Of a stretch of DNA of 64,000 bases, positions 28,750 through 34,014 are shown one piece after another. The notes under the pieces were generated by a model, which saw only the letters and a list, made by a program, of their open reading frames with translations, was not told the origin of the DNA and made no database searches. How positions within the stretch are numbered: position 1 is the first letter of the stretch; every line of letters starts with the position of its first letter. Both the position numbers and the translations under genes were made by a program. The DNA comes from Polyangium spumosum. GTDB lineage: Bacteria; Myxococcota_A; Polyangia; Polyangiales; Polyangiaceae. Where the stretch lies: NCBI RefSeq assembly GCF_009649845.1, contig NZ_WJIE01000001.1, positions 853,054-917,053 of the forward strand, written 5' to 3'.

Positions 28750-29517
28750 GTGCGAGCGCTGTCCTTGCCCGGCTGCGCCTGCCGGGCGGCGTTCCAGTTC
28801 GGCGTGCTCTCGCGCCTCGTCGCCGCGGGCGAGCGCTTCGATGTCGTGGCGGGCGCCTCGTCGGGCTCGGTCTCCGGAGCCGCGCTCGTCGCAGGCCTCG
28901 CCGACGTGGGGCCGGACCTCTGGCGCTCGATGGCGAAGACGCCGGTCGTGTCGCGGCGGTACCTCGCGAGCGAGCGGAGCCCGTTCGGGATGAGCGCAGT
29001 CCTGCGCGGCGCGCTCGAGCGCTTCTTGCCCGAGGAAAAGCTCCACGGGACGGAGGCCGAGCTGCTCGTGGCGACGACACACGCGCGGCGCTTCTTCGCG
29101 GGGAGGAAGGACGCGCTCGTGGTGCACTCGAACCACGAGCGGCGCGACATGCACGACGTGCTCGTGGCGTCGTGCTTCATCCCCGTGATTTACGCGCGCG
29201 TGCCGCGGCTCGACGGGGAGGTGCACATGGACGGCGGCGCCGCGGACAACACCCTCATCGACGCGCTCGTGGCGCGCGGAGCGACGGACATCACGGTGAT
29301 CTCGCCGTTCGCGGGAGGAAAGATCGCCCGCACGCTCTTCTCGCCCGAGGCGCCCCCGACAGCGCCGCCACACGTGCGCCTCCGCCTGCTCTTCCCCGAG
29401 CGCCCGCTGCGACAGCGGCACTTCGACTTCGATCCTGGCCCCATGGAAGAGGCGCTCACGATGCCGCACCGATCGGTCATCGTGGAGCCCCGTAACCGCT
29501 GCACCGGATCCGTATGA
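28750..29517 (+). CDS. Patatin-like phospholipase
   Basis: 255 residues from GTG at 28750. The nucleophile elbow GASSG (Ser37) sits unusually close to the N-terminus, because the glycine-rich oxyanion region is reduced to LSLPGCACRAAFQFGVL. The catalytic Asp is in VHMDGGAADN (about 160). So both dyad residues are present but the canonical GGGxRG oxyanion loop is modified (PGCACR). A serine acyl hydrolase acting on lipids is expected, cytoplasmic or membrane-peripheral. The stop overlaps the moaB start (ATGA), so it is coupled to the Moco operon, for no obvious biochemical reason. Confidence 0.82.
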   Translation: MRALSLPGCACRAAFQFGVLSRLVAAGERFDVVAGASSGSVSGAALVAGLADVGPDLWRSMAKTPVVSRRYLASERSPFGMSAVLRGALERFLPEEKLHGTEAELLVATTHARRFFAGRKDALVVHSNHERRDMHDVLVASCFIPVIYARVPRLDGEVHMDGGAADNTLIDALVARGATDITVISPFAGGKIARTLFSPEAPPTAPPHVRLRLLFPERPLRQRHFDFDPGPMEEALTMPHRSVIVEPRNRCTGSV

Positions 29518-30059
29518 GCACCAAAGAAGAGTTCGAGGTTTTCCGCGTCGCCACGTTCACCCTGAGCGACACGCGCACGCCGAGCGACGACGTGGGGGGG
29601 CGTGTCCTCGTCGATCGCCTGCGCGCCGCGGGCTTCTCGATCACGAGCCACGTGATCCTGCGCGAGGAGCCGGACGAGCTCCGCGCGTCGATCACCCACG
29701 TATGCGACGCGGACCTCGCCGACGCGATCGTGCTGACGGGCGGCACGGGGATCGCTCCGCGCGACCGGACGATCGAGGTCGTCGAGGGCATGCTCGACAA
29801 GACGATCGACGGCTTCGGCGAGGCGTTCCGCAGGCTCTCGTGGGAGCAGATCGGGCCCCGCGCGATCCTGTCGCGCGCGATCGCCGGCGTGGTGCGGGGC
29901 AAGGTGATCGCAGCGCTGCCGGGCAGCCCGAGCGCCGTCGAGCTCGCGGTGGACGCGCTGCTCGCGCCGACGCTCTCGCACGCGATCGCGCTCGCGTCGG
30001 GTCGAGGCGGCAAGCACGCCGCGCACGGCCATCACGGCAAGCACGGGAGGAAACACTGA
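29514..30059 (+). CDS. moaB: Molybdenum cofactor biosynthesis protein MoaB
   Basis: 181 residues. MoaB/MogA fold: FTLSDTRTPSDDVGG at the N-terminus, IVLTGGTGIAPRDRT (molybdopterin-binding loop) and ALPGSPSAVELAVD. It adenylylates molybdopterin before Mo insertion (MogA-type activity is attributed to many MoaB proteins). The C-terminus is an added basic, His-rich tail of about 20 residues (GKHAAHGHHGKHGRKH), absent from typical MoaB. The ATG overlaps the patatin stop; its own stop overlaps the moeA start (TGATG). Confidence 0.93.
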   Translation: MSTKEEFEVFRVATFTLSDTRTPSDDVGGRVLVDRLRAAGFSITSHVILREEPDELRASITHVCDADLADAIVLTGGTGIAPRDRTIEVVEGMLDKTIDGFGEAFRRLSWEQIGPRAILSRAIAGVVRGKVIAALPGSPSAVELAVDALLAPTLSHAIALASGRGGKHAAHGHHGKHGRKH

Positions 30060-31261
30060 TGCTCGCCTACCGCGACGCGCTCGCGCGCCTGCTCGCCGCA
30101 GCGCGGCCCGTGGCGCAGGAGCGCGTGAGCGTGGATCAGGCCGCCGGGCGCGTGCTCGCGGAGGACCTCGTGGCGCGCGCGCCGATGCCGGCGTTCGATC
30201 ACAGCTCGATGGACGGCTACGCGGTGCGCGCCGCGGATCTCGAGGGAGACGGCCCCTTCGAGTTGCCCGTGGTCGGGGAGAGCTCGGCGGGCGGCGAGAC
30301 GCCCGCGCTCGCGCCGAGGAGCGCGTGCCGCATCTTCACCGGCGCGCGGCTGCCCGAGGGCGCGGATGCCGTGATCATGCAGGAGCACGTCGAGCGGCGC
30401 GGAGACGTGATCGTGATCCGCGAGGCGCCGAAGGCGGGCGCGTGGATCCGACGGCGTGGATCGGACCTCGCCGAGGGCGCGGTGGCGATCGCCCGAGGCA
30501 CGCGGATGACGCCGGGGCACGCCGCGCTCGCCGCCGCGCTCGATCGTCCCTTCGTGCTCGTCGCGCGAAGGCCCGTGGTGACGATCCTCTGCTCGGGTGA
30601 CGAGCTCCGGTCGCCGGGCGAGCTGGGCAAACCCGGATCGATCGCCGAGTCGAACGGCGTGTTCGTCGCGGCGGCGGCGCGGCAGATCGGGGCGATCACG
30701 CGCGCCTCCGCGTACGTACCCGACGACCTCGACGTCGCGCGCGCGGCGGTCGTGGAGGCGCTACGCGGCAGTGATCTGGTGGTGACGATCGGCGGCGTGA
30801 GCGTCGGCGATCGGGACGTGATGCGGCCGGCGTTCGAGGCGGCGGGCGTGACGCTGGATTTCTGGAAGGTGGCGATCAAGCCGGGCAAGCCGATCGTCGT
30901 GGGCCACGCGGGAGACGCGCTGGTGCTCGGGTTGCCTGGCAACCCCGCGAGCGCGTCGCTCACGTGGCTGCTCTTCGGCGCGCCGCTCGTGCGCGCGTTG
31001 CAAGGGGATGCGTCGCCGCTGCCGAGGCGAGAGCGCGTGGTGGTGGCGGGCTCGTACGAGCGCGCGCCGGGCCGCGAGGAGTTCGTCCGCGCGCGTCTCG
31101 ACACCGACGCAGGCGCGAAGCGCGCGCGGCTCCTGCCGAACCAGGCGTCGGGCGCGGTGACGAGCTTCGCCGAGGCGGAGGTGCTCGTGGTGGTGCCCGC
31201 GAGTCAGGGCAGGGTCGAGGACGGGAGCGAGCTCGAGGCGATCCGGATCGACGCGTTCTGA
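30059..31261 (+). CDS. moeA: Molybdopterin molybdenumtransferase MoeA
   Basis: 400 residues, normal MoeA length. Signatures: FDHSSMDGYAVRA (domain I), CRIFTGARLPEGADAVIMQE, VTILCSGDELRSPGE, TIGGVSVGDRDVMRPAFE (MPT-binding subdomain) and GLPGNPASASLTW. It inserts molybdate into adenylylated molybdopterin. The start overlaps the moaB stop. It converges with moaE, with 2 nt between stop codons. Confidence 0.96.
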   Translation: MLAYRDALARLLAAARPVAQERVSVDQAAGRVLAEDLVARAPMPAFDHSSMDGYAVRAADLEGDGPFELPVVGESSAGGETPALAPRSACRIFTGARLPEGADAVIMQEHVERRGDVIVIREAPKAGAWIRRRGSDLAEGAVAIARGTRMTPGHAALAAALDRPFVLVARRPVVTILCSGDELRSPGELGKPGSIAESNGVFVAAAARQIGAITRASAYVPDDLDVARAAVVEALRGSDLVVTIGGVSVGDRDVMRPAFEAAGVTLDFWKVAIKPGKPIVVGHAGDALVLGLPGNPASASLTWLLFGAPLVRALQGDASPLPRRERVVVAGSYERAPGREEFVRARLDTDAGAKRARLLPNQASGAVTSFAEAEVLVVVPASQGRVEDGSELEAIRIDAF

Positions 31262-31263
31262 GG

Positions 31264-31761
31264 TCAGCGCTCCTCGTCATCACGCGCGTGGCCGTGATGC
31301 GCGTGGCCGTGAAACGCGTGTTCGCCGTGGTCGGGGGCGCAGCGCGCGTCTTCCCAGCCGACCCAGTAAGGCCCGTCGGGCCCGTGCTCGCGTTTCCAGA
31401 TCGGCAGCCTCGCCTTGATGCGATCGATGAGCTCGCGGCACGCGCGAAACGCCTCGCCGCGATGCGGTGCGCTCGCGGCGCAGACGACGGCGGCGTCGCC
31501 CACGTGGAGCGCGCCGATGCGGTGCGTGGCCGCGACACGGACCTCTGGGATCTCGCGCTCGAGCTCCTCGAGGATCCGCGCGAACTCGGCCTCGGCCATC
31601 GTGCCGTAGGCTTCGTACTCGAGCAGGCTCACGCTGCGGCCGTCGTTCGTGTTGCGAACGACGCCGAGGAAGGTGGCGATCGCGCCGGCCTCGGGGCGCG
31701 CCACGATCTGGACGACCTCGTCGAGCGAGAGGGCCTCGCGGCGAATACGCGGCGCGCTCAC
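31264..31761 (-). CDS. moaE: Molybdopterin synthase catalytic subunit MoaE
   Basis: 165 residues from GTG at 31761, which overlaps the moaC stop (GTGA). MoaE features: GAIATFLGVVRNTNDGRSV, LEYEAYGTMAEAEF, HRIGALHVGDAAVVCAASAPHRGEAF and IKARLPIWKREHGPDG carrying the active-site lysines. It forms MPT synthase with MoaD. A His-rich, acidic tail (EHAFHGHAHHGHARDDEER) extends beyond the usual end. Last gene of moaD-moaA-moaC-moaE. Confidence 0.95.
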   Translation of the reverse strand: MSAPRIRREALSLDEVVQIVARPEAGAIATFLGVVRNTNDGRSVSLLEYEAYGTMAEAEFARILEELEREIPEVRVAATHRIGALHVGDAAVVCAASAPHRGEAFRACRELIDRIKARLPIWKREHGPDGPYWVGWEDARCAPDHGEHAFHGHAHHGHARDDEER

Positions 31762-32696
31762 GGCTTCCTCCGGAAATGGCCCGATCGGCCGCCGCTCTTC
31801 TCCACCAGCATCACGTCCTCCACGACCATCTCGCGATCGATGCCCTTGAGCATGTCGTAGAGCGTCAGCGCGGCCATCGACGCCGCCACCATCGCTTCCA
31901 TCTCCACGCCGGTCCTGTCCGTGGCCTCCGCGCTCGCGGTGATCGTGACGCGCGCGCCCGCCTCGTCGACGTCGAGCGCGATCGCCACGTGCGTCAGGGC
32001 GATCGCGTGGCACATCGGGATGAGCTCCGGCGTGCGCTTGGCGGCCATGATGCCGGCGATACGCGCGGTCGCGAGCACCTCGCCCTTGGGTGTATCGCCA
32101 CGCGCGAGGCGAGATGCGGTCTCGGGGCGCATGCGCACGCGCGCGACGGCGACCGCGCGACGCTGGGAGGGCGCCTTCTCGGCGACGTCGACCATCCGCA
32201 CGTCGCCGCGCGGGCCGAGGTGCGAGGAGAGGCTCGTCGCGTCGGCCTTCTGCGGAGCGGCCTCGGGCGCGAGCACGTCGAGCGCGGCCGCGAGGATCGA
32301 CGGATCCCCACGCTTCGACGCGCGGCGGAGGCAGTGCACGAGAGAAAAACGCGCGAGGCCGGAGAGGGAGGCCCACGTCCGCAGGTCGAACGCGCGGCCC
32401 GCGGGCAAGGCCAGGAGCAGGCCTTCGGGCAGGTGATCGGGGCTCGGATCCCCGCCGAGAGGCATGGGGAGCGCGGGCGGGTAGGCCTGCTGCACGATCG
32501 CGGCGACGGACGGCACGTCGACGATCTCCTCGGCGCCTGCGCGGGTGATGCGCCTTCGATCCTCGAGCGAGAGGGAGCGCCACCCTTCGAGGGGCAACCG
32601 GAGGCCCGCGTGATCGAGCGCGCGGCGCGCGGCGAGAGGGACGAGATCCAGCGCGGGCCCGATCTCTTCGGCTTCGAATGAAAACAGTTCCTTCAC
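31758..32696 (-). CDS. moaC: MoaC fused to an N-terminal nitrate-reductase-associated domain
   Basis: 312 residues, twice the size of MoaC. The C-terminal domain (166-312) is a complete cyclic pyranopterin monophosphate synthase: MVDVAEK, IPMCHAIALTHV, ATDRTGVEMEAMVAASMAALTLYDMLKGID (Asp and Lys catalytic positions) and VEKSGGRSGHFRR. The N-terminal 130 residues (FSFEAEEIGPALDLVPLAARRALDHAGLRLPLEGWRSLS) resemble the small nitrate-reductase-associated protein family (Nitr_red_assoc) known from cyanobacterial nitrate-assimilation loci. It begins 12 nt after moaA. The fusion suggests that domain acts in, or senses, Moco supply (inference). One open frame with no internal stop; a separate start before the MoaC part is not evident. 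Confidence 0.93.
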   Translation of the reverse strand: MKELFSFEAEEIGPALDLVPLAARRALDHAGLRLPLEGWRSLSLEDRRRITRAGAEEIVDVPSVAAIVQQAYPPALPMPLGGDPSPDHLPEGLLLALPAGRAFDLRTWASLSGLARFSLVHCLRRASKRGDPSILAAALDVLAPEAAPQKADATSLSSHLGPRGDVRMVDVAEKAPSQRRAVAVARVRMRPETASRLARGDTPKGEVLATARIAGIMAAKRTPELIPMCHAIALTHVAIALDVDEAGARVTITASAEATDRTGVEMEAMVAASMAALTLYDMLKGIDREMVVEDVMLVEKSGGRSGHFRRKP

Positions 32697-32708: not shown

Positions 32709-33758
32709 CTACCCGCCGATCGCGCGCATGGATACGCCCGCCGCGGTCTCTTCGGTGCAGCCCTTCCAGATCGTGCCGTCGGGCTTCATGGCCCAGGCGC
32801 GCCCGATGTCCTCGACGATCGCCGCGGCGTCCCCCGCGCGCGCAGGTGCCCCTGCGTCGACGCCGTCGTCCGTGGCGAGGCAAGGTCGCAAGACGCCCGT
32901 CGACGAGACGCGCAGGCGATCACAGGTCTCGCAGAACGTGTCGCTCGTGCCCGTGATGAACCCGACGCGGAGCGACGGATCGTGGCGGGCGCGCACGTAC
33001 TTCGCAGGACCGAGGCCCGGATCGGTGACGGCCTCCTCGGCCGTGAGGTGCGCGGCGAGCGCGCGGCGCATCTCTGCGGCGGTGACGAGGTGATCGGCCA
33101 CGAGCTTCGCCCCCTCGGCGATGGGCATGACCTCGAGGAACCGCGGGAGCATGCGCCTCTCCCAGGCCCAGAGCAGGATACGCTCGAGCTCCTCGTCGTT
33201 CACGCCGCGCAGCACGACCGTGTTCAGCTTGATGGGCGGAAACCCCGCCTCGCTCGCGGCCTCGATGCCCGCGAGGACGGCGCCGAGATCCCCGCCACGC
33301 GTGACGGCGCGGAAGCGATCGGGGTCGAGCGTGTCGATCGAGACGTTGATGCGGTGCAGGCCCGCGTCGCGCAGCGGCCGCGCGAGCTTCGCGAGCTGCG
33401 AGGCGTTCGTGGTGAGCGCGAGATCCTCGAAGCCGAGCGAGGCGAGGTGCGCGACGATCGAGACGATCTCGGGGTGCACGAGGGGCTCGCCGCCCGTCAG
33501 CCGCACGCGGCGCACGCCCGCGCGGCGAAGCGCCTCGAACATGGTCTTCCACGCCGACGTCATGAGGCGCCCGTCCGCGTAGCCGTCGTTCCGCGAGGGC
33601 CGGCAATACGTGCAGGCGAAGTCGCACCGATCGGTCACGGAGACGCGCACGCTGCGCGGCGGCGGCCCGGACGCGACGCGCGTCGGCACGAGCGCGCGAG
33701 CGCCGAGCACCGGCAGAGAGCGCCGCTTCTCGGCGGCCGGATCGTTCGTCACCGCCAT
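32709..33758 (-). CDS. moaA: GTP 3',8-cyclase MoaA (radical SAM)
   Basis: 349 residues. The radical-SAM cluster motif is CDFACTYC (Cys45, 49, 52). The C-terminal second cluster lies in FCETCDRLRVSSTGVLRPCL. RLTGGEPLVHPEIV and INVSIDTLDPDRF are typical. It ends in Gly-Gly (SMRAIGG), needed for activity in characterised MoaA. It carries out the first step of Moco synthesis with MoaC, encoded next. An N-terminal extension of about 30 residues precedes the domain. 4-nt gap from moaD. Confidence 0.96.
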   Translation of the reverse strand: MAVTNDPAAEKRRSLPVLGARALVPTRVASGPPPRSVRVSVTDRCDFACTYCRPSRNDGYADGRLMTSAWKTMFEALRRAGVRRVRLTGGEPLVHPEIVSIVAHLASLGFEDLALTTNASQLAKLARPLRDAGLHRINVSIDTLDPDRFRAVTRGGDLGAVLAGIEAASEAGFPPIKLNTVVLRGVNDEELERILLWAWERRMLPRFLEVMPIAEGAKLVADHLVTAAEMRRALAAHLTAEEAVTDPGLGPAKYVRARHDPSLRVGFITGTSDTFCETCDRLRVSSTGVLRPCLATDDGVDAGAPARAGDAAAIVEDIGRAWAMKPDGTIWKGCTEETAAGVSMRAIGG

Positions 33759-33762
33759 CGCC

Positions 33763-34014
33763 TCACCCTCCCGCGACGGGCGGGATCAACGCAACCTCGT
33801 CCCCCGACCGGACCTCTTCGCCGGGCTGCGCATACGCGCCGTTGACCGCGACGCGGATCGAGCGCCGATACGGCACGAGCGCGGGATATCGGCTGCAAAC
33901 GTGGTGAAGAAGCTCCTCCGCGGTGCACGGCCCGTCGAGGGGAAAGGAGAGCTCGGCGGCTCCGAGCACGTCGCGCGCCCCCGCGAACGCGAGCAGCCTC
34001 ACCGTGTTCGACAT
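33763..34014 (-). CDS. moaD: Molybdopterin synthase sulfur carrier subunit MoaD
   Basis: 83 residues from the ATG at 34014 (MSNTVRLLAFAGARDVLGAA). Ubiquitin-like fold with the obligatory C-terminal Gly-Gly (LIPPVAGG), which becomes thiocarboxylated. The long frame running far upstream is the antisense shadow of the kinase gene. First gene of the minus-strand Moco operon, divergent from the kinase at 34123 across 108 bp. Confidence 0.95.
   Translation of the reverse strand: MSNTVRLLAFAGARDVLGAAELSFPLDGPCTAEELLHHVCSRYPALVPYRRSIRVAVNGAYAQPGEEVRSGDEVALIPPVAGG

Follow-up and report, generated by a model that had tools for sequence, protein, structure and literature searches.

A single open reading frame in the moa operon of Polyangium spumosum joins a NarM-like domain, which belongs to the nitrate-reductase-associated family, to MoaC. 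The gene lies within a stretch of 64,000 nucleotides that was analysed as a whole and is called the window here. Our preferred reading, to which we assign a probability of roughly 55%, is that the protein combines a working MoaC with an accessory module of molybdenum cofactor (Moco) synthesis, and that the NarM-like domain would dock MoaC to later pathway enzymes or to client enzymes. Such docking could let intermediates or the finished cofactor be passed on. An accessory role in Moco synthesis is suggested because the fusion is recurrent and lies in a moa operon, because the MoaC residues are kept and because MoaE and MobA-like transferases occur as fusion partners of this family as well. From the sequence data we infer that the NarM-like domain acts by docking or hand-off, and most likely it is not a part dedicated to nitrate reduction only. 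To our knowledge, the movement of Moco intermediates between enzymes and to their clients is little understood. One small domain that is naturally fused to three enzymes of one pathway points at the place where it acts, and the natural NarM fusions provide ready-made constructs for the question of docking and hand-off.

The fusion gene (31758..32696, minus strand) starts with GTG and encodes 312 amino acids. A Pfam scan of this protein placed PF09655 (Nitr_red_assoc) at residues 4-124, corresponding to 32325..32687 on the minus strand, with 41.9 bits against a cut-off of 25 (E 1.7e-10), and MoaC (PF01967) at residues 168-303, corresponding to 31788..32195 on the minus strand, with 175.1 bits against a cut-off of 27. 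The sequence-only reading had proposed that both domains occur in one protein, and the profile check of the N-terminal half bears this out. The gene for the GTP 3',8-cyclase moaA (32709..33758, minus strand; TIGR02666 290.2 bits, cut-off 284.05) is located 12 nt upstream in the same frame, with a TAG stop codon between the two genes. Another 4 nt upstream of moaA, the translation revealed a gene for a small subunit of 83 amino acids (33763..34014, minus strand), which we take to be moaD-like from its position; phmmer homologues of this protein are found near moaA or near the fusion in relatives. Next comes moaE (31264..31761, minus strand; NCBIfam MoaE models 93-98 bits over 143 residues, under the equivalog cut-offs), which shares the last 4 nt (GTGA) of the fusion gene, and the operon reads moaD-moaA-NarM/MoaC-moaE. 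Convergent to it are a moeA-type molybdotransferase gene (30059..31261, plus strand; NF007960 314.5 bits, under the equivalog cut-off of 440) and a moaB-type gene (29514..30059, plus strand), the latter with 140.5 bits for TIGR02667 (under the cut-off of 222) and 98.2 bits for TIGR00177 (over cut-off). PF09655 and MoaC are each matched once in the genome, the fusion being the sole MoaC detected.

With the NCBIfam model TIGR02664, named 'nitrate reductase maturation protein NarM', the N-terminal domain scores 42.7 bits, which is under the cut-off of 110. The window domain is a divergent branch of the NarM family and is hence called NarM-like instead of NarM; since it is divergent and below this cut-off, conclusions on NarM proper would be drawn by homology. 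Membership in the family, as proposed from the sequence alone, therefore stands at the level of PF09655 and not at that of NarM as defined by TIGR02664, and the description of the family as uncharacterised has to be given up in view of the NCBIfam name. A profile of the divergent domains (30 domains, of which 28 are fused to MoaC, one to MoaE and one stands alone) was compared by hhalign with one built from 14 higher-scoring NarM domains of the same class, resulting in a probability of 99.6% and an E-value of 1.9e-24. Positions that are at least 80% kept in both profiles include L16, P20, R24, L27, D28, W39, R47, L111 and R116. The window domain is thus like the NarM family in its PF09655 match, in shared positions and in an internal repeat seen in both. 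In contrast to NarM, which is a separate protein, it is fused to MoaC in a moa operon, and no Nas/FDH-like gene was found in the window. The archaeal NarGH 'NarM', a membrane-spanning anchor according to an excerpt of PMC4683180, looks like an unrelated namesake.

Within the NarM domain (32301-32696 of the window), a helical motif some 37 residues long seems to have been duplicated. In HHalign comparisons of the divergent domains, residues 14-60 matched residues 82-128 with a score of 21.5 and a probability of 55%, whereas 100 column shuffles reached at most 13.7. The same comparison with the higher-scoring NarM domains gave 29.4 and 89%, with a maximum of 17.5 in shuffles. As a control, the second repeat was compared with the middle segment and also scored 20.3, but this match is confined to the 14 columns that both segments contain; the valid control for the repeat is given by the column shuffles. 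An AlphaFold2 model of the domain is mostly helical with a mean pLDDT of 85.6. Assignment of a known fold was rejected. Foldseek against the PDB returned 5 rows, none of them at E<=0.001 and with a probability of 0.08 at best, VIA-align against only 11 chains found none at Z>=2, and searching by sequence for a known structure of the domain returned a single row with E 0.98; the lack of a PDB match does not imply a new fold. In the model of the full-length protein, the linker (residues 146-158) has a pLDDT <50, and with a pTM of 0.50 it is uncertain how the two halves are oriented.

Judged from its residues, the MoaC half looks like an active cyclic pyranopterin monophosphate synthase. As in other MoaC proteins, the whole domain is recognised by PF01967 and by the NCBIfam models TIGR00581 (180.9 bits, cut-off 141.5) and NF006870, all over cut-off, and solved MoaC structures (e.g. 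1ekr, 4pyd) align from residue 157 or 158 to 309. K204, H230, E265, D281 and K284, which we take to be the catalytic MoaC positions, are invariant in all 33 aligned fused proteins and are also present in solved MoaC in the alignments shown. Unlike MoaC, the window protein has some 155 additional residues at its N-terminus, which comprise the NarM-like domain and the low-confidence linker. NCBIfam models named MoaC/MoaB (NF002947), MoaC/MOSC (NF011069) and MoaC/MobA (NF011070) provide a precedent for MoaC fusions, but here MoaC is joined to the NarM family, and none of the models returned describes a NarM-MoaC pairing. At five loci (L079, L080, L082, L084 and L170) the MoaC half behind the NarM-like domain is degenerate. 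The degenerate halves score 21-31 bits by phmmer, except that of L084, which has no phmmer match and 22.6 bits by Pfam, and the YDMLK motif is lost in L080 and L084. A second, better MoaC match was found in G013, G191, G236 and G171.

The spread of the fusion was surveyed in a class sample of 289 genomes, with PF09655 in 82 and MoaC in 245 of them. Long stretches were covered for 77 of the 82 PF09655 genomes, including the window; for G116, G122, G256, G259 and G265, all of them high-scoring, only short loci were covered at this locus. A single frame that combines the domain with a MoaC part of at least about 90 bits was found for 42 proteins, including that of the window, and additionally for G138, which was missed by PF09655 and recovered by an alignment search. 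Counts of PF09655 absence are therefore upper bounds. The survey proposed by the sequence-only reading thus yields the same fusion in 43 of 289 genomes, 42 of which belong to the family of the window and one to another family of the order. Among the 80 genomes of the window's family with a MoaC match, 42 carry the fusion, 4 a degenerate form and 1 a gene that is cut by the contig end (L077, contig edge inside the gene, left out of the fusion count); 7 have an unfused high-scoring NarM and 26 no PF09655 match. All six genomes of the window's genus carry the fusion, and moaA, moaD or moaE occurs in the examined flank of 40 of the 42 fusions. Two unfused loci (L153 and L154) come from two genera in which the fusion also occurs; their moaD, moaC and moaE genes follow each other in the same order, and the domain is missing. 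Domain matches were observed in 38 genomes of a 377-genome phylum sample, none of them beyond the same order. Scanning contigs with a single peptide pattern returned 37 loci, titled myxobacterial or deltaproteobacterial except for one 'Proteobacteria'.

In a MoaC tree of 62 rows, from which the four rows with degenerate MoaC were excluded, the fusion label changes 6 times by parsimony compared to 16.5 times in shuffles. Well-supported branches force at least three changes, which counters a single origin of the fusion, and its history may be one of an early gain followed by losses, or of several gains. We also considered whether the fusion and high-scoring unfused NarM exclude each other in the window's family, where no overlap was observed (p 0.004 if genomes are independent). 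Because the seven genomes with unfused NarM represent two genera, this was not used as evidence.

Fusions of the same family to other enzymes of the pathway were also found. A NarM-like/MoaE fusion is encoded at L054:8150-9217 (plus strand); for its copy from the same contig, L121:5827-6894 (plus strand), Pfam gave 116.2 bits for MoaE and 50.2 bits for PF09655. The draft genome G266 (6% contamination) carries both a NarM-like/MoaC (L053) and this NarM-like/MoaE fusion. A triple fusion of NarM-like domain, MoaC and MoaE was recognised by Pfam in L134 and by phmmer in L063, L069 and L070. Fusions to MobA-like transferases occur in both orders. In G183 and G168, of one genus, NarM (79-80 bits) is followed by the transferase (PF12804, 93 and 84 bits; L112:5993-8491, plus strand, and L113:7601-9943, minus strand), and in G192 and G155, of another single genus, the transferase is followed by the NarM-like domain with 35 and 30 bits (L093:7921-8982, minus strand, and L097:7370-8563, plus strand). 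The label MobA denotes the best family for these four proteins, which score 60-75 bits with TIGR02665 (under the cut-off of 152) and 37-76 bits with TIGR02664 (under 110). The sequence-only reading had taken the fusion as a Rosetta-stone hint at cofactor supply or insertion; this holds and is strengthened by the fusions to MoaE and to MobA-like transferases. A gene for a CRP-family regulator adjoins the MobA-NarM fusion at L093:7139-7879 (minus strand) and L097:8582-9358 (plus strand).

The neighbours of the family were surveyed at 78 loci, of which 30 are fused to neither MoaC nor MoaE. Among these 30, mobA is in the same frame at 4, within 125 bp at 8 and within 2.4 kb at 1 more; counting stand-alone loci, mobA lies within 125 bp at 8 of 26. 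It is found within 5 kb of 11 of the 42 intact MoaC fusions, the window not being among these 11. At 13 of the 30 loci, neither mobA nor a Nas/FDH-like gene was detected in the examined flanks. One neighbour each was scanned for seven of those 13 on the basis of rough gene calls, resulting in two protoglobin histidine kinases, one hydrolase, one methyltransferase and three genes with no Pfam match. The histidine kinase adjoins divergent stand-alone NarM-like genes (L089:8355-9617, plus strand; L096:6634-7782, minus strand). The family had been expected beside nitrate assimilation genes. This is not the general pattern at the loci examined: the neighbours are formate dehydrogenase, NapA-like and other molybdopterin oxidoreductases and mobA, and many loci have none of these. 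A molybdopterin oxidoreductase is present in the flank of 8 of 15 higher-scoring NarM loci (two of the 15 being NarM-MobA fusions). In L100 it is a formate dehydrogenase alpha subunit (942.6 bits, cut-off 666), as in L101 and L115 by best phmmer match; in L109 it is a NapA-like enzyme (893.6 bits, slightly below its cut-off, which is 904), and the enzymes of L106 and L112 are of no assigned type.

The window genome has a candidate Nas/Nap-type enzyme (L033), which is encoded on contig C3, apart from the moa operon. With NCBIfam models it scores 578.6 bits for Fdh-alpha and 501.1 bits for NasC, both under cut-off. Against the PDB, a periplasmic nitrate reductase comes first with 495 bits, and the highest-scoring formate dehydrogenase reaches 410 bits, which suggests the Nas/Nap type but does not prove it. 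A close relative of L033 is present in three of the six genomes of the window's genus, in one of them as two pieces with a TGA. NarG was found over cut-off in 7 of 46 genomes with a fused or degenerate gene. Five fused genomes that are 94-99% complete (G147, G177, G180, G193 and G211), taken from the genomes listed with zero Nas/Nap matches, show neither a Nas/Nap/FDH-like match at E<=1e-60 nor a NarG that passes the cut-off. This search used one query, with which the NapA-like enzyme of L109 scores 391 bits (phmmer). G121 and G138 also have zero Nas/Nap matches and were left uncounted, as G121 has a NarG over cut-off and G138 was outside the NarG search. PF01568 enzymes are present in all five genomes. 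These genomes lack a detected nitrate reductase, which weakens a nitrate-only role; unless there is a type that escapes these searches, it is unlikely that the fused domain serves nitrate reductase alone. More generally, PF01568 is over cut-off in 42 of the 46 genomes and in 7 of 7 genomes with unfused high-scoring NarM. Taken together, 49 of 53 domain-bearing genomes compare with 19 of 26 relatives without PF09655 (Fisher p 0.034, kinship uncorrected), a weak trend in uncorrected counts towards dependence on bis-MGD enzymes. For PF02738 (xanthine-dehydrogenase types) no match was obtained in 10 of the same 46 genomes. Of the formate-dehydrogenase-like matches in the class, a number contain one in-frame TGA, perhaps for selenocysteine.

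These enzymes raise the alternative that the domain is specific to clients and matures nitrate reductase or bis-MGD enzymes, and that the fusion merely co-expresses it with MoaC or tethers it there. The NCBIfam name, the oxidoreductases flanking higher-scoring NarM, the PF01568 counts, the presence of L033 in the window genome and locus L125, where a molybdopterin oxidoreductase is immediately followed by the fusion as the next open frame, would all fit this explanation. The nitrate-only form of it is contradicted by the five near-complete genomes, however, and the examined flanks contain a Nas/FDH-like gene at 0 of 48 loci with a MoaC or MoaE fusion, a degenerate copy or a gene cut short. In addition, MoaC acts upstream of every Moco enzyme and would be an odd tether for a client-specific factor. 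We therefore regard this explanation as unlikely, while giving it real weight. It is quite improbable that the domain is regulatory, sensing a signal or an end product and adjusting MoaC. Retention of the N-terminal domain where the MoaC half is degenerate, and the CRP-type regulators or protoglobin histidine kinases beside some divergent copies, would be in line with regulation; on the other hand, Pfam found no ligand-binding family within this two-repeat, mostly helical domain, and regulation of MoaC leaves the fusions to MoaE and MobA-like transferases unexplained.

An even smaller chance is given to a passenger domain, which only stabilises the protein or drifts after an old fusion. Comparing the window with four named Polyangium loci (10 pairs), dN/dS is 0.09-0.37 for the N-terminal domain and 0.03-0.12 for MoaC, the former exceeding the latter in all 10 pairs, and the changes of the fusion label on the MoaC tree point in the same direction. 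But these values are well under 1, so the N-terminal domain is under purifying selection; 13 columns are invariant across 38 sequences, and a passenger would hardly recur in fusions to MoaE and MobA-like transferases. That the fusion results from a frameshift, which the sequence-only reading had considered, or from an assembly or gene-prediction error is of negligible probability. The sole point in favour is that many relatives are draft genomes, and recurrence refutes it, with both parts in a single frame in 43 genomes, including G186 (2 contigs) and G115 (5 contigs). Some observations also count against the preferred reading, a MoaC with a docking module. The 26 genomes of the window's family with unfused MoaC and without PF09655 indicate that MoaC as such can do without the domain, and we likewise count against it that the PDB gives no functional hint, that the full-length model leaves the arrangement of the halves uncertain, that the N-terminal domain has the higher dN/dS, and the 13 loci without mobA or a Nas/FDH-like gene.

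Extending the docking reading, we tentatively consider that the NarM family as a whole could be a general module of the Moco assembly line, a two-repeat helical adaptor that binds MoaC, MoaE and MobA successively; we hold this to be somewhat doubtful. Such an adaptor would hand intermediates or MGD from one enzyme to the next and then to the apo-enzymes. A narM mutant phenotype in Synechococcus elongatus, reportedly described by Maeda and Omata in 2004, is said to be behind the name NarM. If the extended reading is true, the cyanobacterial phenotype would result from nitrate reductase being the main Moco enzyme of these organisms. The natural fusions also suggest that 'nitrate reductase maturation protein' is too narrow a name for the family.

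An excerpt of PMC5862535 lists a cyanobacterial co-occurrence module of molybdenum cofactor proteins A and C, MoeA, 'MoeE', nitrate reductase and nitrate reductase associated protein, and in part of PMC13366656 narB and narM are tabulated among Synechococcus genes. The passages of PMC6370341, PMC10545762 and PMC7378029 do not name narM. No account of the molecular function of NarM was found in the open-licence literature, whose titles and abstract openings also contained no paper on NarM-MoaC, NarM-MoaE or NarM-MobA fusions. A different MoaC fusion, to MoaB, was observed in another family of the order at L092:5118-6149 (minus strand) and L166:4291-5403 (plus strand), and the L092 fusion has a NarM-like domain some 1.8 kb away.
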